Positions 36,029 to 55,668 of a stretch of DNA of 64,000 nucleotides are shown here, one piece after another. The notes beneath the pieces are model-generated. The model searched no databases. It was not told the origin of the DNA and saw only the letters and a list, made by a program, of their open reading frames with translations. The translations under genes and the position numbers were made by a program. The stretch covers positions 1-64,000 of the forward strand of contig NZ_JACVPJ010000002.1 of assembly GCF_018881975.1 (NCBI RefSeq). The letters run 5' to 3'. Source of the DNA: Polynucleobacter sp. JS-Safj-400b-B2. Lineage in GTDB: Bacteria > Pseudomonadota > Gammaproteobacteria > Burkholderiales > Burkholderiaceae. Each line of letters begins with the position of its first letter. Position 1 is the stretch's first letter.

Positions 36029-36967
36029 TTAGAAGTTAATTCGCTCTTCTTCTACAACAATTGGCCTCTTGCTTACATGAGTTTGTATAACTCCAATATA
36101 TTCGCCAAGAAGGCCCATAAAGATGAAAAGAAGTCCAAATAGCCCAAATAGAGCTATTGCAATTGGAGCCACTCCTACCGGGAAATAATCCCACCAAATC
36201 AGTTTAGCGATTAAAAATACTCCGCCCATAAAGATACTCAGGAGGCCAATCACTAAACCTAAGAATGAGGCAATTCTGATGGGCACTAGAGAGTGGCTAA
36301 CCAAACCCAACATTGCGATATCGTATAAGGTGTAGAAGTTATTTTTGGAGATTCCTCTCACACGACGCGGCTGCTTAAATTCTATAGTCTTAATCGGGTA
36401 ACCCAACTCACAAATAAGTCCTCTTAAATAAGGATAAGGGTCATTAATTTTTCGTATTTCATTAAGTACTTTTTTATCGTAGAGACCAAATCCAGTTGCA
36501 TCCCTAATTAACTTAATATCCGAAATTTTATCTAAAATGCGGTAATACATTTTGCGCAAAAAATGTACGAATTGATTTCCCTCAGATACTGGCTTAGTAG
36601 CTAGCACGATCTTATAACCGGCCTCCCACTCCCTAATAAACTCCATGGCCAATTCAGGAGGATCCTGCAGGTCTGAAGCCATATAAATAGTAGCATCACC
36701 ACTCGTTTGTAAGATGCCCCAGTATGGAGAACGAATGTGGCCAAAATTACGAGTATTGACAATTACTTTTAATCTGGAATCTTTAGAAGCAATCGCTTTT
36801 AACTTTTCAACCGTTCTATCTGTCGATGCATTATCGATAATTACATATTCATAATTAAATTGTGGATTCGCATCCCATATTGCGCTGACTCTTTGGTATA
36901 GATCATCGACGTTATCTTCCTCATTAAAGCAGGGTGATATGAAGCTGATTGTTTTTTTAATAGTCAT
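36029..36967 (-). CDS. Glycosyltransferase family 2, GtrB/DPM1-like
   Basis: 312 residues. The GT-A domain (about 1-220) starts TISFISPCFNEEDNVDDLYQ, with IDNASTDRT for nucleotide binding and MASDLQDPPE as the DxD-type site, followed by RGISKNNFYTLYD; two membrane helices (about 230-253 and 266-290) end the protein. This is the form of GtrB/ArnC enzymes that load a sugar onto undecaprenyl phosphate at the cytoplasmic face. The adjacent GtrA-like gene supports this. The donor may be the CDP-linked sugar made by the neighbouring genes, which is inference. Confidence 0.88.
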   Translation of the reverse strand: MTIKKTISFISPCFNEEDNVDDLYQRVSAIWDANPQFNYEYVIIDNASTDRTVEKLKAIASKDSRLKVIVNTRNFGHIRSPYWGILQTSGDATIYMASDLQDPPELAMEFIREWEAGYKIVLATKPVSEGNQFVHFLRKMYYRILDKISDIKLIRDATGFGLYDKKVLNEIRKINDPYPYLRGLICELGYPIKTIEFKQPRRVRGISKNNFYTLYDIAMLGLVSHSLVPIRIASFLGLVIGLLSIFMGGVFLIAKLIWWDYFPVGVAPIAIALFGLFGLLFIFMGLLGEYIGVIQTHVSKRPIVVEEERINF

Positions 36968-36994: not shown

Positions 36995-37384
36995 TTATTT
37001 TTTAAAGGTAAAGAATTTATGGCCTAGATAAGATGCCCCAACAGTAATCAATATTACCAGCGCTTGCGCATACCAAATCTGCCACCCCAATATATCAACG
37101 AATATCCATATCAGGATGATGCCGAATATAGCCATTCCTCCATAAACAATATAGCTACGGCCATACTCAAGTAGCCAATTTCCAGAGGTTTTAAATACGA
37201 ATAACTTATAAGTCAAAAAGGACATCGTGATAGCAAAAATATTGGCAATCGCTGCAATTACAGTTATATGCAACATATCTGCAAGCAAGGCATATAGGCC
37301 GACACTAATCCCGTACCCAAAAACTGTATTCCAGCCGCCCGCCAACAAATAGCGCAGAGGTTTATGCTCTAAATATTTACGCAC
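36995..37384 (-). CDS. GtrA-family flippase-like membrane protein
   Basis: 129 residues, four hydrophobic helices, usual length for GtrA. Start RYLLAGGWNTVFGYGISVGL and the end YLGHKFFTFKK match the family (the F-x-x-N and KF-x-F blocks). GtrA proteins are thought to flip undecaprenyl-phosphate-linked sugars to the periplasm for O-antigen or teichoic acid modification. It overlaps the epimerase-like gene upstream by 8 nt and lies 27 bp before the GtrB-like gene. Confidence 0.87.
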   Translation of the reverse strand: MRKYLEHKPLRYLLAGGWNTVFGYGISVGLYALLADMLHITVIAAIANIFAITMSFLTYKLFVFKTSGNWLLEYGRSYIVYGGMAIFGIILIWIFVDILGWQIWYAQALVILITVGASYLGHKFFTFKK

Positions 37385-39451: not shown

Positions 39452-39508
39452 CGCTATACCTTATATCAGATTCATGCACTTTCTAAGCGCATTAAAAAAC
39501 TCATTATA

Positions 39509-40168
39509 TTAAGAATTGATTACATTACCCAAACTCGGAATCAAATTTTTTAGATCCCTATGATGGTTTATCTTCATTTGGGGGTTAAATAACTCAATTC
39601 CATCATCGTAACCTGGCAAATATTGCACAAAAGCCACATCAGTAGCCTGAGCCAAACTCTGATCCACCGTACTATCCCCAACCAAAATTGCTTCTCTTGA
39701 ATCCACACCAAAAAACTCTAGACACGATAAAAGGGTCTGGGGGTGTGGTTTTTTGTAAGGCAAATCACCACCCGCATTCATATACCCAAAATAATCATAC
39801 AGTTGGGTCTCTTTTAAAACTTTTTCAGCCAGTACTCTAGGTTTATTAGTGCAAACAGCCAGCTGAAATCCCGAATTTACAAAATGATTCAAAGTCTCTT
39901 TAATTCCTGGATAAATTGAATCGTTTGGGGTATCTATCTCGGAATATCTCTTTCTAAAATCAGTCAAATGCGACTGAATACCTTTCACTGGCAACCCCAA
40001 GGCATTTGCCACTAAATCTTCGCCACCCATACTTAACCAAGGAACCAGTTGTTCAGCCTCCAGATGCTCAAGCCCTCTCTCAGTGCGCATTTGGTTTAAT
40101 ACACTAGTGACAATTTTGGCGCTATCAATTAGCGTGCCATCGAGGTCATAAACAATTAACTTAGCCAT
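39509..40168 (-). CDS. HAD-family phosphatase
   Basis: 219 residues, HAD subfamily IA, like phosphoglycolate phosphatase. Motif I is YDLDGTLIDSA (Asp8 and Asp10), motif II VCTNKPR, motif III KKPHPQTL and motif IV VGDSTVDQ. It removes phosphate from a small sugar phosphate in the cytoplasm. It shares one base with the next gene and sits between the ThDP enzyme and the NeuB-like gene, so it may free the product that the NeuB-like enzyme extends. The exact substrate is not known. Confidence 0.88.
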   Translation of the reverse strand: MAKLIVYDLDGTLIDSAKIVTSVLNQMRTERGLEHLEAEQLVPWLSMGGEDLVANALGLPVKGIQSHLTDFRKRYSEIDTPNDSIYPGIKETLNHFVNSGFQLAVCTNKPRVLAEKVLKETQLYDYFGYMNAGGDLPYKKPHPQTLLSCLEFFGVDSREAILVGDSTVDQSLAQATDVAFVQYLPGYDDGIELFNPQMKINHHRDLKNLIPSLGNVINS

Positions 40169-42036
40169 TAAGGATTGATAATATTTTCACTGAGCTCTTC
40201 TCTGGATAGGAATGGGGCCATATCTTCTAAAGACGGCGAAACCATCGTTCCATCGGGCAACTTACGCGAAGCAAGCTTGGGTGAGAAGGTTTGTTCGATA
40301 TCTAACATCACCTCCAAGATTGCAGCGCCTTTTTCTTTATTCAAAAACCACTCTAATGCGGTGGATAAATCCTGAGAACTAGACACCTGCTTTGAGGGAA
40401 TGTTGAAGGCTTTTCCGAGCTCAACAAAATTAGGCAAGCTAACGCCCGTATCCGGACCAATTCCTATCAAGCTATCTGAGAAATAAGCCTCCTGAGTTTG
40501 ACGAATGGAGTGGTACCCATCGTTATTCAAAATAACGATTTTTATAGGCAGTTTGTATCCAACTACTGTCTGCAGCTCTTGCAGATTCATCATCAAGCTG
40601 CCATCGCCCGCAAGGCAGACAACACGTTTTTTGTCATTTGCCACTGCAGCGCCAATGGCTGCGGGTAAGTCATAGCCCATTGAGGCATTGCCAGAGTTGG
40701 TATAAAGACGCTGGCCCTTCTTCAAATCTGCAGCCTGAAATCCAACTACGCATGCAGATCCATTGCCAGCAACCACTACATCATTACCGTCTAATTTAGC
40801 AAAAAGCGCCTCAATAAATACATACGGATTGACTGGATTGGATTTCTGTTTGTACCCAGGCAGTACAGTCGGGTACTTCATGAGACGCTCTTTAGCCCAT
40901 ATTAAAAATGCTTGATGTGCTGAAGGTACTGTATAGCCTTGCAGGGCCTGCTGCATTGCTGGAATGAACTTTTGCAGAGTTTGCTGTACAGGCAGATCAA
41001 GATCTAGCGTCGGTTTTTTCAACTCCGCCTCGTCTACATCCACCATGGCAATCCAAGCTTTATTAGCAAAACTCTTCCAGTTATAGCTTACTTGCCTAAT
41101 GTTTAAACGACATCCCAGTACCAATAAGAAATCCGCATTTTGAATAACAAAATTACCCGCACGGTTACCCACAGTTCCTGGTCTACCAGCATAGCAAGGA
41201 TGATTATTCTCCAGTGCGTCATGCGCATTCCATCCAGTGACTACTGGAATCTTGAGTGCTTCAATTAACTTTAAGAACTCGGGATGCATACCTGAAATGC
41301 GCACACCAGATCCAGCCATAATTACTGGAAACTTTGCTTTTTTTAAATGCTCAATAATAAGTGCAATCGATTTACCTAAATCGTTAGAACCCAATGTTTG
41401 TAGCTCTAAAACAGTATTTGGAGTAAGTGCTGGATCTTTTGCTAAGGCTTGCAAGTTTGTGCAATCAAAATGACTGAGTTGGCTCGGATCAATTAAGGCG
41501 CCCTGTATATCAACGGGAACATCAACCCATACTGGACCAGGCCTGCCGTTTGTTGCTAGGAAGATCGCCTTATCCATTACTTCGCCAACTAAAAGGGGAT
41601 CTTGCAAAACCGTAGCATACTTCACCGCTGGTTGAGCCATGCTAACAATATCAACCTCTTGGTCACCCAACTGCCTCATAGGTATGGGGTAGTTGCGCAA
41701 ATAAGTTTCCCTTTTGACCTGTCCAGAAATTACGAGCATTCCCAAAGAGTCAACATAGGCGCCGTATACGCCATTCAAGGCATTAATGCCCCCAGGGCCG
41801 GTAGTAACATTTAAAACAGCTAATTTGTTGCTCAATCTGAAATAGCTTTCAGCTGCAATTGCTGCCGCTTGCTCATGATGAAAGCAAATAGGCTCTAAGG
41901 CTTTATTTCTGCCAAATGCATCATTTAAATGCATTGCACCACCGCCAGTAACTAAAAAGACATGGCTTGCACCAGCCTCTACGCAACGTGTAGCAATATA
42001 GTCAGCAACCCTTACTTTTTTTGCGTCCACGGACAT
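40168..42036 (-). CDS. ThDP-dependent carboligase-like enzyme (acetolactate synthase family)
   Basis: 622 residues with the three domains of acetolactate synthase-like enzymes. The activating Glu is in HHEQAAAIAAE (Glu55), and the ThDP/Mg motif is GDGS (477-480) followed by NN at 504-505. It shares one base with rfbH. YerE, which adds a two-carbon unit from pyruvate to CDP-4-keto-3,6-dideoxyglucose in yersiniose synthesis, belongs to this family and also acts after the RfbH (DdhC) step. By analogy it would make a branched sugar here. A role in amino acid synthesis is unlikely, since no small subunit is present and the genes around are for sugars. Confidence 0.85.
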   Translation of the reverse strand: MSVDAKKVRVADYIATRCVEAGASHVFLVTGGGAMHLNDAFGRNKALEPICFHHEQAAAIAAESYFRLSNKLAVLNVTTGPGGINALNGVYGAYVDSLGMLVISGQVKRETYLRNYPIPMRQLGDQEVDIVSMAQPAVKYATVLQDPLLVGEVMDKAIFLATNGRPGPVWVDVPVDIQGALIDPSQLSHFDCTNLQALAKDPALTPNTVLELQTLGSNDLGKSIALIIEHLKKAKFPVIMAGSGVRISGMHPEFLKLIEALKIPVVTGWNAHDALENNHPCYAGRPGTVGNRAGNFVIQNADFLLVLGCRLNIRQVSYNWKSFANKAWIAMVDVDEAELKKPTLDLDLPVQQTLQKFIPAMQQALQGYTVPSAHQAFLIWAKERLMKYPTVLPGYKQKSNPVNPYVFIEALFAKLDGNDVVVAGNGSACVVGFQAADLKKGQRLYTNSGNASMGYDLPAAIGAAVANDKKRVVCLAGDGSLMMNLQELQTVVGYKLPIKIVILNNDGYHSIRQTQEAYFSDSLIGIGPDTGVSLPNFVELGKAFNIPSKQVSSSQDLSTALEWFLNKEKGAAILEVMLDIEQTFSPKLASRKLPDGTMVSPSLEDMAPFLSREELSENIINP

Positions 42037-43379
42037 TAGAAGTTCACGCCTAAGAATGTTTCAATCTGAGATGCTGCGTACTCAAGCATTTCAGGAGTAA
42101 GGGAGGGTTGAACACCAATCCAAAATGTATTGTTCATCACGATATCGGTATTGGTTAATTCGCCACTAATGCGATATTCGGCATCTGCTATGTAGGGCTG
42201 ACGAATTAAATTACCAGCGAATAGAAGACGAGTGCCAATCTTATGTTGATCAAGATAAGTTGTGAGATCAACTCTTGAAACAGGGCAATCTGCCTTTAGG
42301 GTAATTGGAAAACCAAACCAAGAAGGATCTGAATCTGGGGCTGCCTCAGGTAATTGTAAAAATTCCGTACAGGTAGCAAGACGCTTTTTTAAGAATTTGA
42401 AATTATCCTTACGCGCCTGAATAAATGCTGGCGCTTTTTCTAACTGAGCTAATGCGCAAGCAGCTTGCATATCAGTAATCTTCAGGTTGTAACCTAAATG
42501 ACTATAGGTGTACTTATGATCATAGCCATAAGGAAGGTCACCTAATTTCCACGCAAAGCGTTTGCCGCAAGTATTGTCTTTGCCTGGAGGACAGTAGCAA
42601 TCTCGACCCCAGTCACGGAAGCTTTCGGCAATCTGTTTGAGTTCGTAGTTATTCGTAAATACCGCCCCACCCTCACCCATAGTGATGTGATGCGCCGGAT
42701 AAAAACTTAAAGTTGCAATGTCGCCAAAGGTGCCAACCATTTGACCTTTGTAGGTGGTACCAAGTGCATCGCAGCAATCCTCTACCAGCCAGAGATTATA
42801 TTTTTTACAAAGCGCTGTAACTACATCCAAGTTAAATGGATTACCCAATGAGTGCGCCAACATGATCGCCTTAGTCTTAGAGCTAATCGCCGCCTCAATC
42901 TTGGATGCATCAATATTGTGCGTAATGGGATCAACGTCTACAAAGACCGGAATAGCGCCAAATTGCACAATTGGATTAACGGTTGTGGGGAAACCTGCAG
43001 CAACACCGATGACTTCATCGCCCTTTTTAATTGCACGATCGCCCAACTTAGAAGATGTCAGTGCTGAAAAGGCAACTAGGTTTGCTGAAGATCCAGAGTT
43101 GACGGTAATCAGATGTTTAACGCCAATAAACTCGGCTAGCTTTTTTTCAAATAAGTCATTAAAGCGCCCTGTAGTCAGCCAGCCGTCCAAAGAGGCTTCG
43201 ACCATGTTTTCCAACTCTTCGGAGCCAATCAACTTTCCCGAAGGTGGAACTACTGTTTGACCAGGTACAAATGTTTTTGGCACAAATTCTAATGCGGCGT
43301 AATCTTTTACCAACGCCAAAATTTGTTTACGCAATTTATCTTTTGCAAATTGACTGGCTGGAATATTCGTTTCTGTCAT
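42036..43379 (-). CDS. rfbH: CDP-4-keto-6-deoxyglucose-3-dehydrase E1 (RfbH/DdhC)
   Basis: 447 residues, DegT/DnrJ/EryC1 fold. The usual PLP-binding Lys is replaced by His230 ([14 protein letters not shown]), the hallmark of E1. The [2Fe-2S] cysteines follow the known C-x57-C-x-C-x7-C rule exactly: Cys203, Cys261, Cys263, Cys271. The enzyme removes the 3-hydroxyl of CDP-4-keto-6-deoxy-D-glucose, with electrons from an E3 reductase, to give CDP-4-keto-3,6-dideoxyglucose. No E3 (DdhD/RfbI) gene is in the window; another ferredoxin reductase must serve. It forms one run with rfbG and rfbF. Confidence 0.93.
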
Positions 43380-43414
43380 GATTATCTTATGAGAAAAAAA
43401 CTAAATGGGGCTGA

Positions 43415-44509
43415 TTAACTGGCTTGGTAAGCCTTGATTTGCTGCAAAGAGACTTCTTGCATGTTTTCTTTTGCTAAGTGCGCCCTTTGCCACTCAGCAA
43501 TATTTTGTATAGCCACCTCCAGAGACCAGCGGGGTCTCCAACCTAACAATTGATCTGCTTTAGAGCAATCCAACTTTAGTGAATGGGCTTCATGAGGTTG
43601 CTCACCTTGATCCTGCTCCCACTTTGCACCAGCCGGCGATTTCTCGATTAGCAGATGAATAACCTCTTTAACAGGCCGCGCATCTTCATCGCGTGGTCCA
43701 AAGTTCCAACTACTTGCAAACTTCACGCCATCTTTATACAAAGCTTGCGCAAGCACCAAATATCCCGATAAAGGCTCAAGGACATGCTGCCAAGGGCGAG
43801 TGGCCAATGGGTTGCGAATCATCAAAGGCTTGCCGCTATCGAATGCCCTTAGGGCATCCGGAATTAAACGATCCTCTGACCAGTCACCTCCACCAATCAC
43901 ATTACCAGCCCTAGCTGAAGCCAATGCGTGACGATGTTTTGCATAAAGTGAATCTGAAAAATAGGATTGACGAAAAGCTGAAGTAACTAACTCTGCACAG
44001 CCCTTGCTATTGCTGTAAGGATCGTAGCCACCCATGGGCTCATTCTCACGATAACCCCAAACCCACTCTTTATTTTCGTAACACTTATCCGTTGTAACAA
44101 CTACTGTTGCACGGACACAGTCCAAGCCTCGAATGCTTTCCAATACATTCACTGTACCCATGACATTCGTTGCATAGGTTTCGACTGGGTTGAGATACGA
44201 ATAACGCACCAATGGCTGAGCGGCCATATGGATCACAATTTCAGGATTTGAAGCAGTCATCGCGGAGCGTAACTTTTCTAAGTCACGAATGTCTGCAATA
44301 AGTGACCTCTCCATTACGCTTTCAACACCAGCAACCTCAAAAAAACTGGGGGTGGTATTTGGCGCCAAGGAATAACCCGTTACTTTTGCACCCATGGAAG
44401 ATAACCAAAGAGAAAGCCATCCTCCTTTAAAGCCGGTATGGCCCGTCATAAAAACGCGCTTGCCCTGCCAGAATGCAGAATCAATAGTCGCAGTTTTCAG
44501 AGAGCTCAT
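43415..44509 (-). CDS. rfbG: CDP-glucose 4,6-dehydratase
   Basis: 364 residues, extended SDR. KRVFMTGHTGFKGGWLSLWL binds NAD+ and VVVTTDKCYENKEW plus YDPYSNSKG give the catalytic Thr, Tyr and Lys. It converts CDP-D-glucose to CDP-4-keto-6-deoxyglucose in the cytoplasm. I place the start at ATG 44509, whose ATGA overlaps the rfbF stop; an upstream ATG at 44545 would overlap rfbF by 40 nt with no extra conservation. It supplies the substrate for RfbH. Confidence 0.93.
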   Translation of the reverse strand: MSSLKTATIDSAFWQGKRVFMTGHTGFKGGWLSLWLSSMGAKVTGYSLAPNTTPSFFEVAGVESVMERSLIADIRDLEKLRSAMTASNPEIVIHMAAQPLVRYSYLNPVETYATNVMGTVNVLESIRGLDCVRATVVVTTDKCYENKEWVWGYRENEPMGGYDPYSNSKGCAELVTSAFRQSYFSDSLYAKHRHALASARAGNVIGGGDWSEDRLIPDALRAFDSGKPLMIRNPLATRPWQHVLEPLSGYLVLAQALYKDGVKFASSWNFGPRDEDARPVKEVIHLLIEKSPAGAKWEQDQGEQPHEAHSLKLDCSKADQLLGWRPRWSLEVAIQNIAEWQRAHLAKENMQEVSLQQIKAYQAS

Positions 44510-45273
44510 GCCCAGAATTTCCAAGGGGCTTTGCCCGTTGCCCACAATTCTTCAAGGTGGTTCTTATCTCGCAAGGTATCCATCGGCTGCCAAAAACCTG
44601 AATGGAAATATGACTGTAATTGACCTTGTTTAGCTAGACTCTCTAGGGGCTGCTTTTCCCAAAGCGTTTCATCGCCCTCAATCAAACTTAACACTTTTGG
44701 ATTGAGTACAAAAAAGCCGCCATTGATCCAGCCGCCATCACCTTGGGGCTTCTCTAAAAAGGAATTAATTTGGGTACCATCAATTTCCAAGGCGCCAAAT
44801 CGACCTGGAGGCTGCACAGCAGTCATGGTAGCTGATTTTCCATGGGCCTTATGAAACTTTACTAAGGCTGAAATATCTACCGAGCCAACGCCGTCGCCAT
44901 AAGTCATGCAAAAGTCACCATCAATGTAATCCCCAACACGTTTAAGTCGACCCCCGGTCTGAGTGGTTTCGCCTGTGTCGACAAGCGCCACCTTCCAAGG
45001 CTCGGCTTTCTTATGGTGCACTTCTATACTGTTATTGGTCATATCAATCGTAACGTCGGACATATGCAAGAAGTAATTTGCAAAGTACTCTTTGATGACA
45101 TACCCTTTGTAGCCGCAACAAATTACAAAATCATTCACCCCATGGGCGGAGTACATCTTCATAATATGCCAGAGAATTGGCTTTCCACCAATTTCAATCA
45201 TAGGTTTGGGCTTAGAGACACTCTCTTCTGAAATGCGGGTACCTAGACCGCCAGCAAGAATTACAGCTTTCAT
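44506..45273 (-). CDS. rfbF: Glucose-1-phosphate cytidylyltransferase
   Basis: 255 residues, the family length. AVILAGGLGTRISEESVSKP is the nucleotidyltransferase signature, with GYKGYVIKEYFANYFLHMSD typical of RfbF, and NGGFFVLNPKVL later. It makes CDP-glucose from CTP and glucose-1-phosphate, the first step of the CDP-3,6-dideoxyhexose branch. The 124-bp gap upstream is AT-rich and probably carries a promoter for the CDP-sugar run down to 36029. Confidence 0.94.
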   Translation of the reverse strand: MKAVILAGGLGTRISEESVSKPKPMIEIGGKPILWHIMKMYSAHGVNDFVICCGYKGYVIKEYFANYFLHMSDVTIDMTNNSIEVHHKKAEPWKVALVDTGETTQTGGRLKRVGDYIDGDFCMTYGDGVGSVDISALVKFHKAHGKSATMTAVQPPGRFGALEIDGTQINSFLEKPQGDGGWINGGFFVLNPKVLSLIEGDETLWEKQPLESLAKQGQLQSYFHSGFWQPMDTLRDKNHLEELWATGKAPWKFWA

Positions 45274-45397: not shown

Positions 45398-45973
45398 TTA
45401 CTTAGCATAATTTTTATCAGTATTATATACAGAGGTAATAAGCCCCATCAACTTGACAGTCTCAATGCCTTTAGGGGTTAACTTGTAACCACCTTCAAAC
45501 TTTTCAACATTTCCGATTTCTACTTGCTCTAACAGGCGTCGTTGAACAGCGTTCTCCTTCTTGAAATAGAGCTCATCTATGTATGTGTCCATATCCTTCT
45601 CTGACACCAGCGTATCTTGATGATTGAATAAATATCCAACAATCATGACCGAGACAGATCTTGAGGCATTAAAGGGAATTAATCCATAAAAAATATGGTT
45701 TGTAGTAAAAAATATTATTGTTATTAATAATATATCTCTATACGTTAACGATTTTAAAGATGATACTTTAAACTTTAGAAAAATCAGTATAAATATTATT
45801 AATAAACAGACTGTAAATAGATATATGAGTGATTTAAAAAATAAAATATCTCCACTATTTAGAAAATTAATCCAAAAGAGAGATAAAAAAAGTCCAGTTC
45901 CAGCAATAATTGTAATGAGATATATGCATCCTAATTTTAATATTTCCCCTATATTTTTCATCATAACCCTCAC
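45398..45973 (-). CDS. Membrane protein with a C-terminal soluble domain, unknown
   Basis: 191 residues with helices at about 12-33, 43-65 and 78-98, then a soluble tail. The tail (about 125-180: VSEKDMDTYIDELYFKKENA, QVEIGNVEKFEGGYKLTPKG) resembles a small winged-helix or end-of-operon regulatory fold (a KLTxKG turn), which in a membrane protein is odd. I do not know the family. It overlaps the large membrane protein gene by 4 nt and is likely an accessory of it. The codons are very AT-rich. Confidence 0.6.
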   Translation of the reverse strand: MRVMMKNIGEILKLGCIYLITIIAGTGLFLSLFWINFLNSGDILFFKSLIYLFTVCLLIIFILIFLKFKVSSLKSLTYRDILLITIIFFTTNHIFYGLIPFNASRSVSVMIVGYLFNHQDTLVSEKDMDTYIDELYFKKENAVQRRLLEQVEIGNVEKFEGGYKLTPKGIETVKLMGLITSVYNTDKNYAK

Positions 45974-48261
45974 TTTGGGAGACTCTTGGAGTAAGTAAAA
46001 TTATTGATCTTTATATGCAAAGACCTTGGATCAGACGGGGCGACAATAGCATCTGCGTCAGTGAATAACGAAATCACATATGTTTCTCCAGCCTGAACTT
46101 TTACAGACCCATTAAATTGGGATGCCCTATTGTTGACTTTAATGGAGTCACTTATAGCCTTACCTTTAATAGTTAAGTTAGAGAATTTTTCTGACCCAGT
46201 TTGTACGTAAAAGTTAAAGTTTACTAAGATAGGAATATTTGCGTAATTCTTAAATGCTAGTGATGATGATTTACCGCACCATCTCCAGCTATTAGCCCCA
46301 GACATCTCTTCAGGGTAACAGCCTGATAGCCATTGGTCTAAAACTAGAGTTGATTTCATTTCAGCAATTTTTTTCGAATCACTCTGACGCTCAATATCAG
46401 CCTCAAATTCTCTGGGAACAAGCTCAACAATCTTAAAGTCATACTTGTACTCAGGACTGCTTGAGAAATAAGGAACAACGAAGTTCTGCAAACGCAATGG
46501 AACAAAGCCGCTTTTAGCGAGTTCATTCAAAGACCAATCAAGAGATAAGCCCAAAGTACCGGGATTAATTAAAGAAAAATATCTCTTCGCACCCAAGTCA
46601 TGAATAGTTTCATTGAATTTATTAGTCCCTGCTGCCCCCCTCATGGAAAGATGATGAAGATCTACATAGGGGATAAATGGATTAAGCAAAACCATATAAC
46701 CACTTACTACTGGGCTACTTGGAATCCAGACCTGCGCCAGGTTAACTATGCTTTTAGACTGCTCTGGCAAAAACTCATACAAAGAGTAATCTTTTAAAAC
46801 ATATCTAAGTTCTTTGATATACCCGCTAAAGTTAGAAAATACTGTCGGTCTTCCAGCCCATTCATATTTCAGTATATTGTTGATAGAAAAGGTACATTTT
46901 AAAACGCAAAAAACAACGATGATGATCTTAAGTATTTTTAAGACTGAAATAGAAACAAACCTTTTATTACTAAGCCAGTGATTTTCCCTTAAAAATAATT
47001 GTCCGACACTAATCAGAATTACACCCCCGAGAATTTCAAAAACAGTAACATATCTAAAATCTCCAGAAACGACTCCCCATATAAAAACCGATGGAGCAAA
47101 CAAGAGGCAAAGAATTTGAATATTATTAGGTACTCTTATTTTTCTCAGGGCAATAAATAAAAATAGACCGATAGATGTCAGGTACCCAAGGCTGGCAAAA
47201 AAGGGATATGTTGGTGTAGGCGATAGTCTACCAACCTTATAAAGCATCACTATCGGCCAAAAATAAGCATCAAATCTACTTTCTGGCCCCAAAGTATCAT
47301 CAGACATAACTTTCAAACTTGCGTAAGGAGACCGGAAAATCCAGTTGTAATGGGGATAAATCGGATTTCCAGTTATCCAAAAAACATATGAATGAAATGG
47401 AATAATGGGCAGCGCAAAAAAGACAACACATACTAAAAAAGAATAATAAGTGGAGGGAGACTTTAAATTATTATTTTTTGTGTATTGATAAAGAGCAATC
47501 GCCAAAGCCGGCAAAATAATATATAAGTTTGTCAGTTTTAAGCCAACTGCCATCCCCATTAGGAGGGAGATAAAGAAATATTGGCGCTTTGTTTTGTGCT
47601 TAACAAAAGAAAGCAAGTAGGTGATTTCAAGAATGAGGGGAATTGCCAATAAGTCAACCCAATAGTTACTTATCTCATAAATAATGCCTTCAAAAGATAG
47701 TAATGTAATAATAAAAATACATCTTAAATAGTTTCTATGAGTAAAAAATTTTAAAATTTTCTCCAGAATAAGTCCTGACCAAATAAGAACTAGTAAATTG
47801 AGAACAGTTCCAAGGCGATGACCAAGAGTGTGACGAAAAACTGTCGTCAACATATCGCTTATTGGATTTGAGTAGGAGAGATAAAAAAAGTCTCCCTGAA
47901 TAAAGGGAAATCCTACAACCGCCCTTTCCCCATTAATAAAGTGATAATTGATGACATCCCATGAGCTATCCGGGAACGGGAATCTCAATAGATAAAATAA
48001 GCAAAGTGGTAGAACAACAATTAATAAAAATGGAGTATTAAATTTCTTATTTTCATTTTGAATGTCGCCATTGGGAGGGCGTAAATAAAGAATGATTGAG
48101 GTAGCTATAATCAAAGAAGTGATCCAAACGACCAACCCATTAAAGCTCCAAAAATATTGCCTAATATATATACTTAAATAGCAGATAAACAGTAAATTTT
48201 CAAAAGAAAAATATTTAAAAGCCCTTAATAAGTAATTTATTATATTTTCTTTTATGAGCAT
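45970..48261 (-). CDS. GT-C-type membrane glycosyltransferase with a C-terminal domain
   Basis: 763 residues. About twelve hydrophobic helices in 1-450, with an acidic first periplasmic loop (PDSSWDVINYHF, Asp98 and Asp103) as in GT39-type polyprenyl-sugar transferases, then periplasmic sequence. Residues 647-763 form a domain shared with the two next genes: GxYxxE, a WxW pair (659 and 661) and DPR (744-746). It probably moves a sugar from undecaprenyl phosphate to a glycan in the periplasm. Low GC sets the gene apart from the flanking synthesis genes. Specific donor unknown. Confidence 0.72.
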   Translation of the reverse strand: MLIKENIINYLLRAFKYFSFENLLFICYLSIYIRQYFWSFNGLVVWITSLIIATSIILYLRPPNGDIQNENKKFNTPFLLIVVLPLCLFYLLRFPFPDSSWDVINYHFINGERAVVGFPFIQGDFFYLSYSNPISDMLTTVFRHTLGHRLGTVLNLLVLIWSGLILEKILKFFTHRNYLRCIFIITLLSFEGIIYEISNYWVDLLAIPLILEITYLLSFVKHKTKRQYFFISLLMGMAVGLKLTNLYIILPALAIALYQYTKNNNLKSPSTYYSFLVCVVFFALPIIPFHSYVFWITGNPIYPHYNWIFRSPYASLKVMSDDTLGPESRFDAYFWPIVMLYKVGRLSPTPTYPFFASLGYLTSIGLFLFIALRKIRVPNNIQILCLLFAPSVFIWGVVSGDFRYVTVFEILGGVILISVGQLFLRENHWLSNKRFVSISVLKILKIIIVVFCVLKCTFSINNILKYEWAGRPTVFSNFSGYIKELRYVLKDYSLYEFLPEQSKSIVNLAQVWIPSSPVVSGYMVLLNPFIPYVDLHHLSMRGAAGTNKFNETIHDLGAKRYFSLINPGTLGLSLDWSLNELAKSGFVPLRLQNFVVPYFSSSPEYKYDFKIVELVPREFEADIERQSDSKKIAEMKSTLVLDQWLSGCYPEEMSGANSWRWCGKSSSLAFKNYANIPILVNFNFYVQTGSEKFSNLTIKGKAISDSIKVNNRASQFNGSVKVQAGETYVISLFTDADAIVAPSDPRSLHIKINNFTYSKSLPK

Positions 48262-48262
48262 T

Positions 48263-50245
48263 TTAATTTTTATTATTATTTAATATATGAGGACTGAAGA
48301 TCCTAAAGCTAAATAGACGAGGGTCCCTTTCAGATAATGTTATCGCATTACCAGCAGATTTAAGGAGCACGGAATTCATTCCAGGGCGAAGAACTGCCTC
48401 TACAACCACATTCTCCATTGCAGATGAATTTAAAGTTTTTGTAAAGAGAGGTTTGCCATTTAAGAAACCAGATAGGACTTGGTTAATTGCTGACTGCAAG
48501 GGAATAGTTAACTTAACCTCAACGGGACTACCTGCATAGTTATAGAAACTAATCTCTGAATTTCCGCTTGACCAAGCCCATTCTTTTCTTTGTGTTGGCT
48601 CCCAACCATAAAACCCACTTCCAAGAACTGGTCCCAATACCAAACCAGGCACATCTTCCAAGAAATGAATTGTATTTTTTTTAACCTCCCAGGTGCCTTC
48701 AAGAGATCCAATTCGAATTTGCTCTTCATTACCCTTCGTAGTTTGCCTAGAAAATATGAAGCGATTTTTGGGATCAGTTTTTATATCCGTAAGACTTGAC
48801 GAGCTTGATGCATTATTTAATAGATCTTTAACAAAAATACAATCGACTTTTCTGCCTAAAATCATGGAAAAGAATGTGACGCAAGAGTCACCGGTCTCCC
48901 AAGGAAGCAAGGAATCCACAATTAGCGTATCACTGCTTTTAACCTGCTCCATAAACCCCATATCAACGGCAGTTTGGATTTCTTTTCTTGGATTTAGAAA
49001 ATCTATATTTTTTTGTTCGATCCTTGAAATATTAGTTGCGGTAGTTAAACCACAAATTGCAGAAATGAGCAAAAAGAGGGGAATTATAAAAATATATGCT
49101 GAAAAGCGAGTACACAAGTAGGTAGCACATATAGCAAATAATAGGGCTACACCCCAATATTGAAAATATACGATGATGTATGGATCGCCATAAGAAACTA
49201 TAGTCTGATATCTAGAAGATAGCGCCAATAAAAATGGGGGCACGCATGCGAGCAAAATTCCGATAAATATTATTAGCAAACTCTTCTTTGGCAGTCGATG
49301 TTTACCAACCCCATCCAGCCTAGAAAGAGTAGCGTTGAATAGAAAACTCAATAAAAAGTAAGTGAGACTTAATCCAAAAAATGTTTCGAAATTTAAGTTT
49401 ATTGGAAGAACTTTATTTCCAAGAAAGCTCAGGGGTAGCGCAGAAAAAAACTGATAGAAAAACGTTGCAACAGATGGATGATGGCTAACATTAATTCCGT
49501 CATAGGAAGATGACCGCATCGCAATAAGTAACAAGCAAATAATTCCATGTGTCAATGCAACCAATAGGGTTGATATCAATGCAGGCTTATTGAGCTTCTC
49601 ATTTTTCTGCCTCCAAAAAAAACATATTAATATTTGAACTGGAATAATTACAATACTTACCTCATAGGTAGACAAAGCCAAAAACTCTAAAACCAGCGCA
49701 AGCACTAGGAATATTTTTTTACTTTGGTCTAAATAATTGACTAGAGATAAACAAGAGCATGTAACCAATAAAAATGCCAGTTGATTTAATGGCCCAAAGC
49801 TAGTGATGCCATCCCACCTAGGATTGAACTGAAATAGCATTGGTAAAAAGACGATAGTGAACCCTGCGATAAGCAAATCACCAGAGAGCTTTTTAATCAG
49901 AAGAAAAAAGGTGAAGCCATTTAGGCAGATGAACGCAAGATGGATCGCTCTATATTTTAGAAGGGTATCACAGACATCCCAGATATAAGACACAACAATG
50001 ATGGCAACTGGAAAGAATCGACCAACGGCGAACCACTGCTGAAATTGGGAGGCAACAAATCTACTAAGAGTTACTTCTTCGTACTTAATTCTTCCCGAGA
50101 TAAGACTGTTATATATGTCGTCAAAATAAAATCCAGAGATTGCATATGGATATAGACATATTCCAAAACAACCAATTACCGCAAAATAAAAACAAAACCT
50201 CGCAACAAGAGGACGATTTAAATATCCACCCATTGAAATCTTCAA
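48263..50245 (-). CDS. GT-C-type membrane protein with the shared C-terminal domain
   Basis: 660 residues, about twelve helices in 1-420. The first periplasmic loop carries YFDDIYNS with Asp42-Asp43, the acidic pair of many GT-C enzymes such as GtrII-type O-antigen glucosyltransferases. Residues 544-660 are the same module as in its neighbours: GFYGWE, W556/W558, and DPR 641-643. It overlaps the next gene upstream by 4 nt. A GtrC-like role, attaching a lipid-linked sugar to O-polysaccharide, fits the GtrA and GtrB-like genes of the locus, but this is inference. Confidence 0.7.
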   Translation of the reverse strand: MKISMGGYLNRPLVARFCFYFAVIGCFGICLYPYAISGFYFDDIYNSLISGRIKYEEVTLSRFVASQFQQWFAVGRFFPVAIIVVSYIWDVCDTLLKYRAIHLAFICLNGFTFFLLIKKLSGDLLIAGFTIVFLPMLFQFNPRWDGITSFGPLNQLAFLLVTCSCLSLVNYLDQSKKIFLVLALVLEFLALSTYEVSIVIIPVQILICFFWRQKNEKLNKPALISTLLVALTHGIICLLLIAMRSSSYDGINVSHHPSVATFFYQFFSALPLSFLGNKVLPINLNFETFFGLSLTYFLLSFLFNATLSRLDGVGKHRLPKKSLLIIFIGILLACVPPFLLALSSRYQTIVSYGDPYIIVYFQYWGVALLFAICATYLCTRFSAYIFIIPLFLLISAICGLTTATNISRIEQKNIDFLNPRKEIQTAVDMGFMEQVKSSDTLIVDSLLPWETGDSCVTFFSMILGRKVDCIFVKDLLNNASSSSSLTDIKTDPKNRFIFSRQTTKGNEEQIRIGSLEGTWEVKKNTIHFLEDVPGLVLGPVLGSGFYGWEPTQRKEWAWSSGNSEISFYNYAGSPVEVKLTIPLQSAINQVLSGFLNGKPLFTKTLNSSAMENVVVEAVLRPGMNSVLLKSAGNAITLSERDPRLFSFRIFSPHILNNNKN

Positions 50246-52344
50246 TCTAAAGCCACAATCCGGATAGAGCTTAATCTAAACCCAAATTTTCTAGGGTCAG
50301 GTTTAATTTCAACTGGAGGCATGCCAGTATTGAATGCAATAATATTCTTTCCCGGTGCTAGCTGGAATTCTAACGTCACCCGCTGCTCTTCATTCGGTAT
50401 GAAGGCTATTTCTTGTAAAGTTGATCGATTGTCAATGCTTAACTTCGATGAGTTCACAACTGAAATCCTCGCCTCAAACACAGCCTTCACCGGATCTTTA
50501 GAAAAGTTATAGACCAATAATTTTGCATTTGCACCAGCCCAACTCCAGCTCTCACCGTTCCGATTAGATTCAAGACCATAAAAGCCATCTGCCGGTATAT
50601 AAGATAGCTTCGGCGTTATTTCCGGAAGTCTTGCAGGCTGGATTGGATAAAAAACATTAACCCCATCAGGACTAATCAGCGGATCAAATCGACTCACACT
50701 CTTTAAGGCTTGCAACATATCAATGCAGCCATTTTTACAAGCATCTGTATTTACTAAAACCCCCGAGAATCCTGATTTCCGAAGGCTTTTAACCCGCTCA
50801 TTAGGATCTAGTGTACTTATGGCATTATTCCAAAAATCAGCGGGCCTGCCTTTTATTGCCCCATAACTCCAGCTGATGCCTATCGTCTGGAGATATGGCT
50901 TGAAGTATGAGTAATACCCCTCCTTATAAAGTTCAGCGCTTTCAGGAAACTGAACATAAGGATACTGATAAATAACTGATCCCGGGGGTACCAAATCTTC
51001 GAGGTCTTTATAAAATTTCTTCTCAACATAAAAGCTCTTGATCAATTCTGGATTTTGACCTATTACGCCCTTCGGCACTTGATCAAATAAAGCGAATACA
51101 CTAATGCATAAACTCAAAGCTAGAAAATAAACTTTCTTGTATTGGGAATTAATGGCATTCAAAATTTTGTCTAAGATAATTGCCAAAGCCAGGAGAGAGA
51201 AAAATGCAATAAAAATACTTATCCTGTTTAAACCCCTAAACTCAGGCGTGATAAAAAAAGCAAAAATCCCGCCAAGGCCACCGACAGTTCCAATTAAAAA
51301 TGCAAATAAATTGATTCTGGATAAAACTTGCAACCTCTCATCCAACACTGGGCGTAATCTAGCAATCAATGAGATGAGTAAGTAAAAAAATCCCACTGAT
51401 GCTAAGATTCCTAACGCACTTGAAGTTGCCTCAGTGATTAATATTTGCTCCTGATATCGATGATTCAAACTGGCAAATAGGTTGCTACTGTGGCCCCAGA
51501 TTGGCAATATCAATTGAATTAACTTTAGCCCGTAAAGTTCGCTCTCGATAAAACTACGTTGAGCCACCAAGAGATTGGGGCCTTCAACCAATCTGTAATA
51601 GAGGGATGGCAATAAGTTAGATAATGCAGCCAAAAGAATCACAAAGATGCCAATGACTGTATTTTTAATAACAGCTAAATCTTTGTAGCGTAAATAACCG
51701 ATTATTCCTAATAAAGAAAATATAAGAATACTAAAAAAAGCATAGTAAATACCGCACATTCCAGCCAGCACTAAGATGAAAAAATAACTTAATGTTAACT
51801 TTCCAAACCTACCGCTAGAGTTTTTTAAAATGCCATTAGTGAGATCAATCATGACTGCACTAATTATTGGGACTATAAAATAGGTTGCCAGAAATAAATG
51901 CTTGGCATTTCTTAAAAAATGGTATGGCGCCACCGTAAATGCAATTGCAAATGCAACCGAGAGAAAAATATTCACTTCATATTTTCTAAGGGACCAATAT
52001 GTCGCAAAATAAATAAGGGCAAACCCAAATATATAGAATATGTTAAGGATTAAAAAATGATCACTTGAAAAAATTGTGAACATTTTTAAGACAACTAAAA
52101 AAAAGTTATCCGCTCCAGGGAAATCTAAAAAGTTAAAACCGAATGGGGCACCCAGTTGAGTTCCACGAAATACCCAGCCATCACTAATCATTGTTTTAAT
52201 GGCAGCCAAACTCAATAATGCATCACCATCGTAACTAAATGGCACCCTCAAATCCAGAAGATGAAATCTAAACAAGTACTGCAAAAGAAGCAGAAGTGGC
52301 AGCAATACAATCAAAATTTGTGAGGGCCTCAATTTATTTAGCAC
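50242..52344 (-). CDS. YfhO-like GT-C membrane protein with the shared C-terminal domain
   Basis: 700 residues, about twelve helices in 1-410, then a periplasmic half. The first loop has YDGDALLSL (Asp39, Asp41) and the block FPGADNFFLV, resembling DUF6311 or YfhO-like proteins that transfer sugars from polyprenyl phosphate. Residues 587-700 are the module shared with the two genes downstream: GFYGLE, W600/W602 and DPR 683-685. It is separated by one base from the glycosyltransferase upstream. Substrate unknown. Confidence 0.7.
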   Translation of the reverse strand: MLNKLRPSQILIVLLPLLLLLQYLFRFHLLDLRVPFSYDGDALLSLAAIKTMISDGWVFRGTQLGAPFGFNFLDFPGADNFFLVVLKMFTIFSSDHFLILNIFYIFGFALIYFATYWSLRKYEVNIFLSVAFAIAFTVAPYHFLRNAKHLFLATYFIVPIISAVMIDLTNGILKNSSGRFGKLTLSYFFILVLAGMCGIYYAFFSILIFSLLGIIGYLRYKDLAVIKNTVIGIFVILLAALSNLLPSLYYRLVEGPNLLVAQRSFIESELYGLKLIQLILPIWGHSSNLFASLNHRYQEQILITEATSSALGILASVGFFYLLISLIARLRPVLDERLQVLSRINLFAFLIGTVGGLGGIFAFFITPEFRGLNRISIFIAFFSLLALAIILDKILNAINSQYKKVYFLALSLCISVFALFDQVPKGVIGQNPELIKSFYVEKKFYKDLEDLVPPGSVIYQYPYVQFPESAELYKEGYYSYFKPYLQTIGISWSYGAIKGRPADFWNNAISTLDPNERVKSLRKSGFSGVLVNTDACKNGCIDMLQALKSVSRFDPLISPDGVNVFYPIQPARLPEITPKLSYIPADGFYGLESNRNGESWSWAGANAKLLVYNFSKDPVKAVFEARISVVNSSKLSIDNRSTLQEIAFIPNEEQRVTLEFQLAPGKNIIAFNTGMPPVEIKPDPRKFGFRLSSIRIVALD

Positions 52345-53656: not shown

Positions 53657-54877
53657 CTACTTTTTTACTACCTGAGGGGGCAGCCAACTAGACCCTAAAA
53701 AGAATGGTTTATCTATGTTTATCGCCGTAAATACCAGTGCCAAATCCTGCCAAGCAAAATTTTTACTCAAATGAGTATCGCCAGTATGCAAAGAACAAGC
53801 AATAGAAAAGGTTCCAACCCCCATATTTGCGACAAACTTAAACTCAACCGCCACCTCCTGCTGAGCTTTCAAGTTTTCCAATGGAAAACCTAGGTGGTGT
53901 GTATTGGTTCCATATAAGATTAGACCCAACCTATCTTTAATGGAATAACCTACTGTTAATTGAGGTATATCAACAAATGTCCGAAAGACGATTCTCAGGA
54001 TGACAGTTTGTCCAACCCCTATAACCTCAATGTCTTGACCGTCTAGATTCTGAAGAGAGATGCTTTCGAATTGAATTTCTCCACTACCAGACTTAATTTT
54101 AAGGCGTCCATCAATACTTGACCCCTGAAGAATTTTTTGCGCGTCTTGATGGCCTGACAACATTGCATTGTAGTAATCCATTACCCCTTCAGGCTCGCCC
54201 TCCATTAATACCTTTCCATCACCCAATAAAATAGCGCGCGAACAGATTGACTGAATGGCTGCTTTATCGTGACTAACAATCAATAAGGTAGTGCCAAGCC
54301 TCTGAAACTCTCGAATACGCTCAAAACTTTTATGTTGAAAATAAGCGTCGCCCACTGAGAGGGCCTCATCGATAATTAATACATCTGGACGTATGGCGGT
54401 TGCAACGGCAAATGCCAGTCGCACCTGCATTCCACTGCTGTAGACTCGTACTGGTCGATCAAAATAATCGCCAATCTCAGCAAAACTCTCAACACTAGGC
54501 ATTAAACTTGATAATTCTTCTGTACTAATCCCCATGAGCTGCCCAGCCATGTATGCATTTTGCCTGCCAGTAAAGTCTGGATGAAACCCCATACCCAATT
54601 CAAGAAGTGCGGCCACCTTTCCATTGATTATTACTTCGCCTGTTGTGGGCTTCACAGTTCCAGTAATCATTTTTAGAAGGGTACTTTTACCCGCACCATT
54701 AATACCAATAATACCGAGAGCCTCTCCTGGCTTTACTGAAAAACTAATATCTTTTAATACCCACTTTAATTTATGCCTATCTCCAAAAAATGGGACTACC
54801 CATTCTGCAAACCTAGCCCACTTTGAGCTGTACTGCTTATAGGCCTTGCTTAAGTCAGAAACGATGATTGCACTCAT
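53657..54877 (-). CDS. wzt: O-antigen ABC transporter ATP-binding protein Wzt with a C-terminal glycan-binding domain
   Basis: 406 residues. The ATPase (about 1-235) has Walker A GINGAGKSTLLK, signature YSSGMQVRLAFA and Walker B VLIIDEALSVGD. Residues about 255-400 form the Wzt C-terminal beta-sandwich (FESISLQNLDGQDIEVIGVG, LIFGTNTHHLGFP-type block reading LILYGTNTHHLGFP). In E. coli O8/O9a this domain recognises the finished chain end, so the exported glycan probably carries a specific terminal group. It shares one base with wzm. Confidence 0.92.
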   Translation of the reverse strand: MSAIIVSDLSKAYKQYSSKWARFAEWVVPFFGDRHKLKWVLKDISFSVKPGEALGIIGINGAGKSTLLKMITGTVKPTTGEVIINGKVAALLELGMGFHPDFTGRQNAYMAGQLMGISTEELSSLMPSVESFAEIGDYFDRPVRVYSSGMQVRLAFAVATAIRPDVLIIDEALSVGDAYFQHKSFERIREFQRLGTTLLIVSHDKAAIQSICSRAILLGDGKVLMEGEPEGVMDYYNAMLSGHQDAQKILQGSSIDGRLKIKSGSGEIQFESISLQNLDGQDIEVIGVGQTVILRIVFRTFVDIPQLTVGYSIKDRLGLILYGTNTHHLGFPLENLKAQQEVAVEFKFVANMGVGTFSIACSLHTGDTHLSKNFAWQDLALVFTAINIDKPFFLGSSWLPPQVVKK

Positions 54878-55668
54878 TACAGTTCATCCACCATATCGCC
54901 AGCATGACGTCTGAATAAATAGAGACCAAGGAAACATAAGCAAATACTTAAGATCAATGGATAGACCAAATCAATCCATTCAGGCATAGCCTTCATCACC
55001 AAGATGCCTTGGAATGCGCCGATAACCGGAACAAGTGGATTTAGACTCATGAGGCTTTGCACTTTTGAAGGCAAGATACTAATTGGATAAACAATGGGCG
55101 TTAGCCAAAACCAAAACTGTAGAAAAATACCAAAGAATTGACCTACATCCCGAAAAAAAACATTAAGCACCCCCAATGTCACACCCAAACCAATCGCAAA
55201 TAACAATAAGATAAGCAATGGTGGAATTAGAGCGAAAAAAAAGATGCCAGGAAAATTTCCAGTGATTATTAGAAAGATTATAAAAAGCCCAAAAATAATT
55301 GCAAAGTTAACAAGCGCATTACCCAAAACAATGACTGGCAAACACATTCTTGGAAATATTAGCTTTTTGAGTAAATTGGCATTCTCAAGAAAGCACACTT
55401 GCATACGCTGAACAATTTCACTGAATAACCCCCAAGTGAGAGCCCCTGCACATAAATAAATACTATAGGCAACGTTACTCTCAACACCCGGTAACTTGGC
55501 CTTCATGACCTGAGAAAACACGACGGTGTAGACCACAATCAAAGCCAAAGGGCTTAATACCGCCCAAACCACACCAAAAAGTGAGTTCTGATATTTTGCT
55601 TGAAAGTCCCGCTTAATAGTTCCAGTTATGAAACCGCGATAACTCCAGAGAGATTTAAGTATATTCAC
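54877..55668 (-). CDS. wzm: O-antigen ABC transporter permease Wzm
   Basis: 263 residues, ABC-2 family, six helices. Typical blocks are IKRDFQAKYQNSLFGVVWAV near the start and GVLNVFFRDVGQFFGIFLQF near the middle. It forms the channel with Wzt for undecaprenyl-linked polysaccharide. The 88-bp gap upstream separates it from the GDP-sugar genes, without an obvious terminator. Confidence 0.92.
   Translation of the reverse strand: MNILKSLWSYRGFITGTIKRDFQAKYQNSLFGVVWAVLSPLALIVVYTVVFSQVMKAKLPGVESNVAYSIYLCAGALTWGLFSEIVQRMQVCFLENANLLKKLIFPRMCLPVIVLGNALVNFAIIFGLFIIFLIITGNFPGIFFFALIPPLLILLLFAIGLGVTLGVLNVFFRDVGQFFGIFLQFWFWLTPIVYPISILPSKVQSLMSLNPLVPVIGAFQGILVMKAMPEWIDLVYPLILSICLCFLGLYLFRRHAGDMVDEL

Follow-up and report, generated by a model that had tools for sequence, protein, structure and literature searches.

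Three consecutive genes of Polynucleobacter sp. JS-Safj-400b-B2, lying in a 64,000-nucleotide stretch of DNA (positions 1 to 64,000 of NZ_JACVPJ010000002.1, contig C23 of the 2.6-Mb genome GCF_018881975.1; hereafter the window), encode probable GT-C glycosyltransferases, denoted P1, P2 and P3, which end in the same module of ~120 residues and whose membrane parts have no detectable kinship. We consider it reasonably probable that this tail is a movable accessory glycan-binding module of the CBM35/CBM6 type (CBM, carbohydrate-binding module) that ends glycosyltransferases in surface-polysaccharide clusters, and that in the window it sits on periplasmic GT-C enzymes decorating an O-polysaccharide.

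One domain family at the ends of three adjacent proteins

The three genes occupy the minus strand head to tail in the transcription order P3 (50242..52344, 700 residues), P2 (48263..50245, 660 residues) and P1 (45970..48261, 763 residues), and their open reading frames (ORFs) overlap or nearly abut. The tails, on the same strand, comprise residues 577-700 of P3 (50245..50616), 534-660 of P2 (48266..48646) and 637-763 of P1 (45973..46353). An earlier note, made from the sequence alone, had aligned residues 647-763 of P1, 544-660 of P2 and 587-700 of P3 by eye, and this homology is confirmed by BLASTP, by shuffling and by profile searches. With the tails cut out, BLASTP against a tiny database gave E-values of 1.5e-10 for P2/P3, 3e-6 for P1/P2 and 5e-4 for P1/P3; with the full-length proteins the values were 7e-8, 6e-4 and 0.07, respectively. 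Smith-Waterman z-scores of the tails were 18.8, 10.1 and 7.3 for the same pairs, and for every pair none of 500 shuffles scored as well. When scaled to a million-letter database, the E-values become 3e-7 for P2/P3, 0.009 for P1/P2 and above 0.01 for P1/P3. Since the pairwise values are weak at that size, membership of the P1 tail rests on the family profile. Hidden Markov models (HMMs) were built from nine tails (P1, P2, P3 and those designated by their genomes G449, G558, G600, G853, G905 and G1093), leaving out one tail at a time. The left-out tail ranked first of 911 every time, with E-values from 4e-7 to 1e-24 (2e-17 for the P1 tail), against decoys comprising 900 shuffled tails and nine reversed proteins, the best of which in any run reached E = 0.053. 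Judged by these sequence comparisons, the nine tails are one family. The window tails are mutually only 15-24% identical, and every one of the nine aligned tails is the C-terminal end of its protein.

The motif spacings given in the earlier note were right to within one residue. The G of GxYxxE stands at residue 647 in P1, 544 in P2 and 587 in P3, and is followed after 12-13 residues by WxW, after 25-26 by N-[YF] and after 96-97 by DPR. The core conserved in the family is narrower than this motif, as neither the Y nor the first W is universal among the relatives (GFS, GWH and GWS; FRW, YHW and RWA). The glutamate is retained in all nine tails and also in a plasmid-encoded GT4 described below; G-[FWC] and DPR are each found in eight of nine, the exception both times being G600, which has degenerate motifs. 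The expectation that no existing Pfam domain describes the module also held: scans of the full proteins with Pfam-A and NCBIfam placed no model over any tail, and the G558 and G449 tails had no Pfam match above cut-off. When the three window tails alone were compared with Pfam at E ≤ 10, rows were returned for the P1 tail only, both sub-cut-off (E = 0.07 and 0.11) and the first a carbohydrate-binding family.

The N-terminal parts of the three proteins are far less alike than the tails, as had been noted. Pairwise Smith-Waterman comparison of the membrane parts yielded z-scores of 1.6, 2.4 and 0.4, with 36, 20 and 145 of 500 shuffles scoring as well, and BLAST among the three gave no match better than E = 0.37. 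Plain hydropathy, a method that gave just four segments for G558, places ~11 hydrophobic segments in P1, ~11 in P2 and ~10 in P3. For comparison, GT-C glycosyltransferases have 7-13 transmembrane helices, and an acidic motif lies in their first extracytoplasmic loop. Acidic motifs follow the first segment in P2 (FDD) and P3 (YDGD) and the second in P1 (DSSWD). P1 has sub-threshold matches to PMT_2 (Pfam, E = 0.003) and LIC_10190 (NCBIfam, E = 1e-4); P2 and P3 in full have no Pfam or NCBIfam family match, and phmmer searches with full P1 and P2 against PDB sequences returned no match at E = 1. The proposal that all three are GT-C enzymes stands on topology and motif and gained no family model above cut-off; we regard P1, P2 and P3 as probable GT-C glycosyltransferases.

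Predicted fold of the tail

AlphaFold2 models were made for the P3 and P1 tails, the two least similar of the window. Their input alignments consisted of the three window tails only, and the models are thus not independent of each other. Both are all-beta, with ten strands and a predicted local distance difference test score (pLDDT) of 70.5 for the P3 tail, and eight strands and a pLDDT of 64.4 for the P1 tail. In Foldseek searches against the PDB, the P3 tail had 19 matches at E = 0.001, mostly CBM35/CBM6 chains or glycan-active enzymes, including arabinoxylanase 5la2 (E = 1.4e-4) and CBM35 2w47 (E = 5.4e-4). The P1 tail had two matches at this threshold, and its first three rows are CBM35 chains with E-values from 9e-4 (2w47) to 1.1e-3. 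Lower rows for both tails also contain sandwiches of different kinds, Cry toxins among them. VIA-align likewise matched the P3 tail best to CBM35 2w47 (Z = 8.8, root-mean-square deviation (rmsd) 3.9, 113 aligned); a Z below 8 may be merely a common arrangement, and the best values for the two tails, 8.8 and 8.4, are little above that.

The models, moderate as they are, support a CBM35/CBM6-type (galactose-binding-like) beta-sandwich for the tail; the P2 tail is assigned to the same module by homology. Different folds in the three tails had been named as the outcome that would speak against a shared module, and the models of two of the three agree on one fold. The suggestion of a beta-rich, glycan-binding-like module is likewise favored by the models and the Foldseek matches, but no family match by sequence accompanies it. 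Two other relationships were considered and rejected. PDB 4epc appeared as a possible relative of the tails (E = 0.41, 0.0022 and 0.026), but the matches cover just ~45-55 residues. Wzt_C (PF14524), the C-terminal domain of an exporter subunit encoded nearby, gave hhalign probabilities of only 0.2-0.6% when Wzt C-terminal domains were compared with the tails, and had no Pfam match to them.

Carriers and probable exchange of the tail

Outside the host, we found the tail in six genomes and on one plasmid-encoded GT4. Our genome draws overlap, so the matches cannot be added into one rate, and distant members will have escaped the profiles, which were built from a small number of divergent tails. 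In the host genome the P3 tail used as a query (E up to 10) finds only the three copies, and within the genus the host is the only one of 151 genomes with a tail. At the level of the class, a phmmer search of 274 genomes gave seven genomes with a match at E = 0.1, three of which hold up (host, G449 and G558), and a five-sequence profile against 369 genomes gave seven such genomes at E = 0.01, four of which hold up, adding G600. A six-sequence profile found three carriers among 200 genomes of the order (host, G853 and G905), and an eight-sequence profile found two among 131 genomes of the family of G853 (G853 and G1093). Among 299 genomes of the phylum the host alone held up, twice, beside two and three chance matches; of the two genomes searched in the order of G449, only G449 itself matched.

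The plasmid GT4 comes from Pseudosulfitobacter pseudonitzschiae and has G-W-x3-E, RW and DPRSLSF within its C-terminal 120 residues. This tail is weak by tblastn (E = 0.4), and the nine-tail profile ranks it first of 1002 with E = 4e-5 (best shuffle 0.78). Searches of plasmids by tblastn with the P3, G558, G449, G853 and P2 tails and with full P1 and P2 found nothing, nor did pattern searches of genome contigs and viral contigs. Reading of frames or internal stops identified L007, L008, L011-L014, L019-L021 and L026-L028 as chance matches. On rescoring with the nine-tail profile, L014 (E = 7e-6), L021 (0.007), L020 (0.013) and L019 (0.04) gave weak matches and were left out; L014 and L021 match only as separate pieces of 32-37 residues round WxW in repeat-bearing proteins. 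A Nostoc match (H3, E = 0.5) does not match the tail profile. Nor did the profile recover a Methylocystis plasmid glycosyltransferase (L081:3870-5942; H5, which the GT4 tail had matched at E = 5e-4), which has a diverged GKGW..E stretch followed by more C-terminal sequence, perhaps a remote tail.

The carriers differ in their cores. Only P3, G449, G600 and G1093 have related ones (24-41% identity, E = 4e-26 or better), and BLAST at E = 1e-3 links the cores of P1, P2, G853, G558 and G905 to none of the others. A weak Pfam match to VipE (E = 0.003) was seen for one of five P3-type proteins. The HMM search proposed in the earlier note for finding the domain in other GT-C proteins did bring up further P3-type and other carriers, but the module is not confined to GT-C: it also ends the GT4, and it is doubled in G905 (L041:5315-6322), where a tandem pair of tails, 32% identical over 107 residues, lies in a protein fragment with no hydrophobic segment, the N-terminus being beyond the contig end. 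GT4 enzymes work in the cytoplasm, and the GT4 carrier therefore hints at a use of the module on that side as well.

Relationships among the tails do not follow those among the cores. Among the other tails, that of G449 comes nearest to the P1 tail (31% identity, E = 2e-13), and the remainder of the two proteins is unrelated. In the tree of nine tails, P1 joins G449 and G600 (support 93/94, not starred), both of which are P3-type enzymes. Approximately unbiased (AU) tests rejected a clade of the three window tails (p = 0.030), a clade of the four P3-type tails (p = 0.008) and a clade of P3, G449 and G600 (p = 0.013), and did not reject P2 with P3 (p = 0.39). The four tests were run after the tree had been seen, the two main groups being set by the finding and the cores rather than by the tree; with nine rows, long branches and no starred branch, the evidence is moderate. 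Because neither the window tails nor the P3-type tails form a clade, the tail seems, on present sequences, to have moved between enzymes.

The gene cluster and a proposed role in O-polysaccharide decoration

Genes of a candidate decoration system are present in the same stretch, all on the minus strand. Upstream of P3-P2-P1, 53657..55668 encodes the O-polysaccharide ABC exporter, consisting of Wzt with its Wzt_C domain (PF14524, E = 6e-28) and Wzm (54877-55668; PF01061, E = 1e-23). Downstream of P1 lie rfbF, rfbG and rfbH, the genes for a cytidine diphosphate (CDP)-4-keto-3,6-dideoxyhexose (42036..45273; TIGR02623, TIGR02622 and NF011936, all above cut-off), followed by a thiamine diphosphate (ThDP) enzyme of the acetolactate-synthase kind (40168..42036; TPP_enzyme N/M/C domains; closest solved relative PDB 8rph, E = 2e-113), which is a candidate maker of a two-carbon branch. 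Still further downstream are genes for a NeuB-family protein, a GtrA-like flippase (36995..37384; PF04138, GtrA_DPMS_TM, E = 3e-13, above cut-off) and a GtrB-like GT2 with a C-terminal membrane part (36029..36967; PF00535, E = 7e-23, above cut-off). The GT2 fell below cut-off for PgfS and PRK10714 and passed no GtrB model; it is a probable maker of a polyprenyl-phosphate sugar.

Under the explanation we favor, the three GT-C enzymes would carry the tail into the periplasm. The GtrB-like protein would make, and the GtrA-like protein flip, the undecaprenyl-phosphate-linked sugars with which P1-P3 would decorate the O-polysaccharide that Wzm/Wzt exports. Each enzyme would be kept on its polymer by the tail, which would raise the local polymer concentration. 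We infer glycan binding, the periplasmic side, the identity of the acceptor and the decoration reaction; the periplasmic side follows from GT-C identity and a rough charge count, and the decoration role from analogy with the CBMs of two characterised enzymes, ORF12 and EmbC.

ORF12 (GT136) of Citrobacter youngae O1 is a GT-C whose C-terminal beta domain, a CBM, binds undecorated O-polysaccharide in vitro (PMC11127046). EmbC likewise has a CBM in its C-terminal domain, and the enzyme is inhibited when conserved tryptophans are altered (PMC3044687). The ORF12 system resembles the window in combining a GT-C that has a C-terminal beta-rich CBM with a Wzm/Wzt-type locus and a three-component decoration system (PMC11127046). 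It differs in that its donor comes from a polyprenyl phosphoribose synthase, where the window has GtrA/GtrB-like genes, and in that the window has three proteins in a row with the module. The arabinosyltransferases EmbA, EmbB, EmbC and AftD are a case in which a number of GT-C enzymes from one pathway have CBMs that contact the acceptor (PMC3044687, PMC11127046). The window differs from that case in that its cores have no detectable kinship and its Pfam matches include no Emb model. EmbA, EmbB and EmbC are homologous along their full length. CBM35/CBM6 domains, to which both tail models match best in Foldseek, differ in that the tail has no detectable sequence match to them and sits on biosynthetic rather than degrading enzymes. 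Finally, in resemblance to GtrABC O-antigen side-chain systems, genes for a GtrA-like flippase, a GtrB-like GT2 and probable GT-C enzymes occur in one locus, but they are not an adjacent trio, the probable GT-C enzymes number three instead of one, and they bear the extra tail. Among the titles and abstract openings on GT-C with CBM, O-antigen and GtrA/GtrB covered by our literature set, outside which most subscription journals fall, none describes the module. Precedents exist for the role; what looks new is the domain family, together with its distribution across unrelated cores and the presence of three copies in a single operon.

Several observations weigh against glycan binding in the periplasm as the function of the tail. 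The models have pLDDT values of 64-70 and derive from the same three sequences, the Foldseek TM-scores on the query are 0.27-0.56, and sequence profile searches of the PDB reached no solved CBM35/6. In the VIA comparison of the P3 tail, Ape1 and the receptor-binding domains of binary toxins score within 1 of CBM35 (Z = 7.9-8.6), a tie, and the P1 tail matches CDTb best (Z = 8.4, rmsd 6.2), with CBM35 chains at 6.4-6.9. The charge count puts the tail in the periplasm in six of eight proteins (two of them by one charge), is tied for P1 and points the other way for G1093. ORF12 without its CBM is still active under the conditions tested (PMC11127046). Furthermore, a P3-type core without the tail occurs in Roseobacter litoralis, and two P3-core homologues (L031 and L032, frames of 725 and 744 codons, in two of 151 genus genomes) end in an unrelated C-terminus of ~135 residues, mutually similar and located at the place of the P3 tail, without a match to the tail profile; the possibility that these are degenerate tails found no support. 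The tail is therefore dispensable for the P3 family.

If the tails do bind glycan, all three might recognise the same motif of the O-polysaccharide, so that three side-chain sugars are added to one backbone. The enzymes share an operon and a domain family, in a locus whose Wzt_C is the sole match in the genome at E = 0.01, but the tails have low identity and group separately, and CBM35/6-type folds bind various ligands; a single shared acceptor is thus conceivable, and we would not count on it. The tail could instead be a structural or protein-protein domain involved in folding, enzyme pairing or docking to the exporter, with no glycan binding at all. Sandwiches of BcsB, of Ape1 and of toxin receptor-binding domains do appear among the VIA rows, some tied with CBMs, and the module is also found on a GT4. 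However, sugar-binding modules and enzymes that contain them make up most of the top Foldseek rows for either model, the one carrier assigned to a family is a glycosyltransferase, sugar genes surround most of the carriers (not that of G449), and the two characterised cases bind glycan (PMC11127046, PMC3044687). We consider this alternative unlikely. Copying of the tails within the operon, with nothing but recent descent in common, is suggested by their neighbouring positions, by P2/P3 being the best window pair and by the P2-P3 clade that the AU test did not reject, but is improbable given the low mutual identity, the closer kinship of the P1 tail with G449 and the moderately supported rejection of a clade of three.

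The other loci with a tail share parts of this setting. In G853, whose tail locus encodes Wzt and Wzm sharing 63% and 60% identity with the window proteins, the tail protein directly precedes rfbF-rfbG-rfbH and a GtrB-like gene is 27% identical to ours; the window GtrA has no BLAST match at E = 1e-6 in G853 or the other stretches. In G1093 the tail protein again stands directly before rfbF-rfbG-rfbH, after which come an epimerase (31%), a pair resembling transketolase and a GtrA-like ORF, the latter two named by eye; its GtrB-like gene is 52% identical to that of the window. The ThDP enzyme of the window and the transketolase-like pair near the matching place in G1093 may represent two enzyme types for branched CDP-sugars. 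In G600 the tail gene is one gene away from genes for Wzm and Wzt (30% and 36% identity), and this Wzt, at 250 residues, is too short for a C-terminal domain. The G558 tail gene adjoins a membrane protein with PMT_2 above cut-off, that of G905 lies beside gmd (55%) and a gene resembling fcl by eye, and around that of G449 no sugar genes were recognised by eye among ORFs of at least 180 residues in 18.7 kb. Overall, the tail gene adjoins rfbFGH, or is one small gene away as in the window, in three of the seven tail-bearing genomes (window, G853 and G1093). Conversely, rfbF was detected at E = 1e-40 in 33 of 121 genus genomes (35 matches), and at the 30 loci examined, with flanks of up to 1.5 kb, the tail was present at the window's own locus only (next best E = 0.84). 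The linkage is one-directional, three of seven from tail to rfbFGH and one of 30 in reverse, and rfbF was rejected as a fixed companion of the tail.

Three other features of the window deserve mention. The small gene between P1 and rfbF (45398-45973, with a 4-base overlap with P1) encodes a 191-residue membrane protein with no Pfam or NCBIfam family, whose last 60 residues resemble, by eye, a small soluble domain. NeuB-family and phosphatase-like genes (38363-40168), located between an epimerase and the ThDP enzyme, suggest a further unusual sugar; BLAST at E = 1e-6 found no counterpart of them in the stretches from G853 and G1093. A Wzx-like polysaccharide transporter, recognised by eye, is encoded at 61941-63260 near the Wzm/Wzt exporter, and the cluster may thus have two export routes.

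A more far-reaching and doubtful proposal is that the tail represents a hitherto undescribed address module, passed freely between unrelated GT-C and GT4 enzymes to place them on one polymer, and that its occurrence beside rfbFGH, ThDP or transketolase-like, GtrA and GtrB genes marks the periplasmic addition of CDP-derived 3,6-dideoxy or branched sugars via a polyprenyl-phosphate donor. In the classic systems, O units already bear the terminal dideoxyhexose when moved by Wzx (PMC6436433), and periplasmic addition, if true, would therefore be a new way. Further members of the family can be sought with the nine-tail profile and the motif G-[FWC]-x3-E ... W ... D-P-R-x-[LF]. Only a few GT-C enzymes are known to have a C-terminal module that binds the acceptor, among them the arabinan enzymes of mycobacteria and one enzyme of O-antigen synthesis. 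A module that sits on unrelated neighbouring transferases, seems to have changed cores and lies beside a candidate periplasmic decoration system provides a sequence handle for such enzymes and an opportunity to study what directs several transferases to one polymer.

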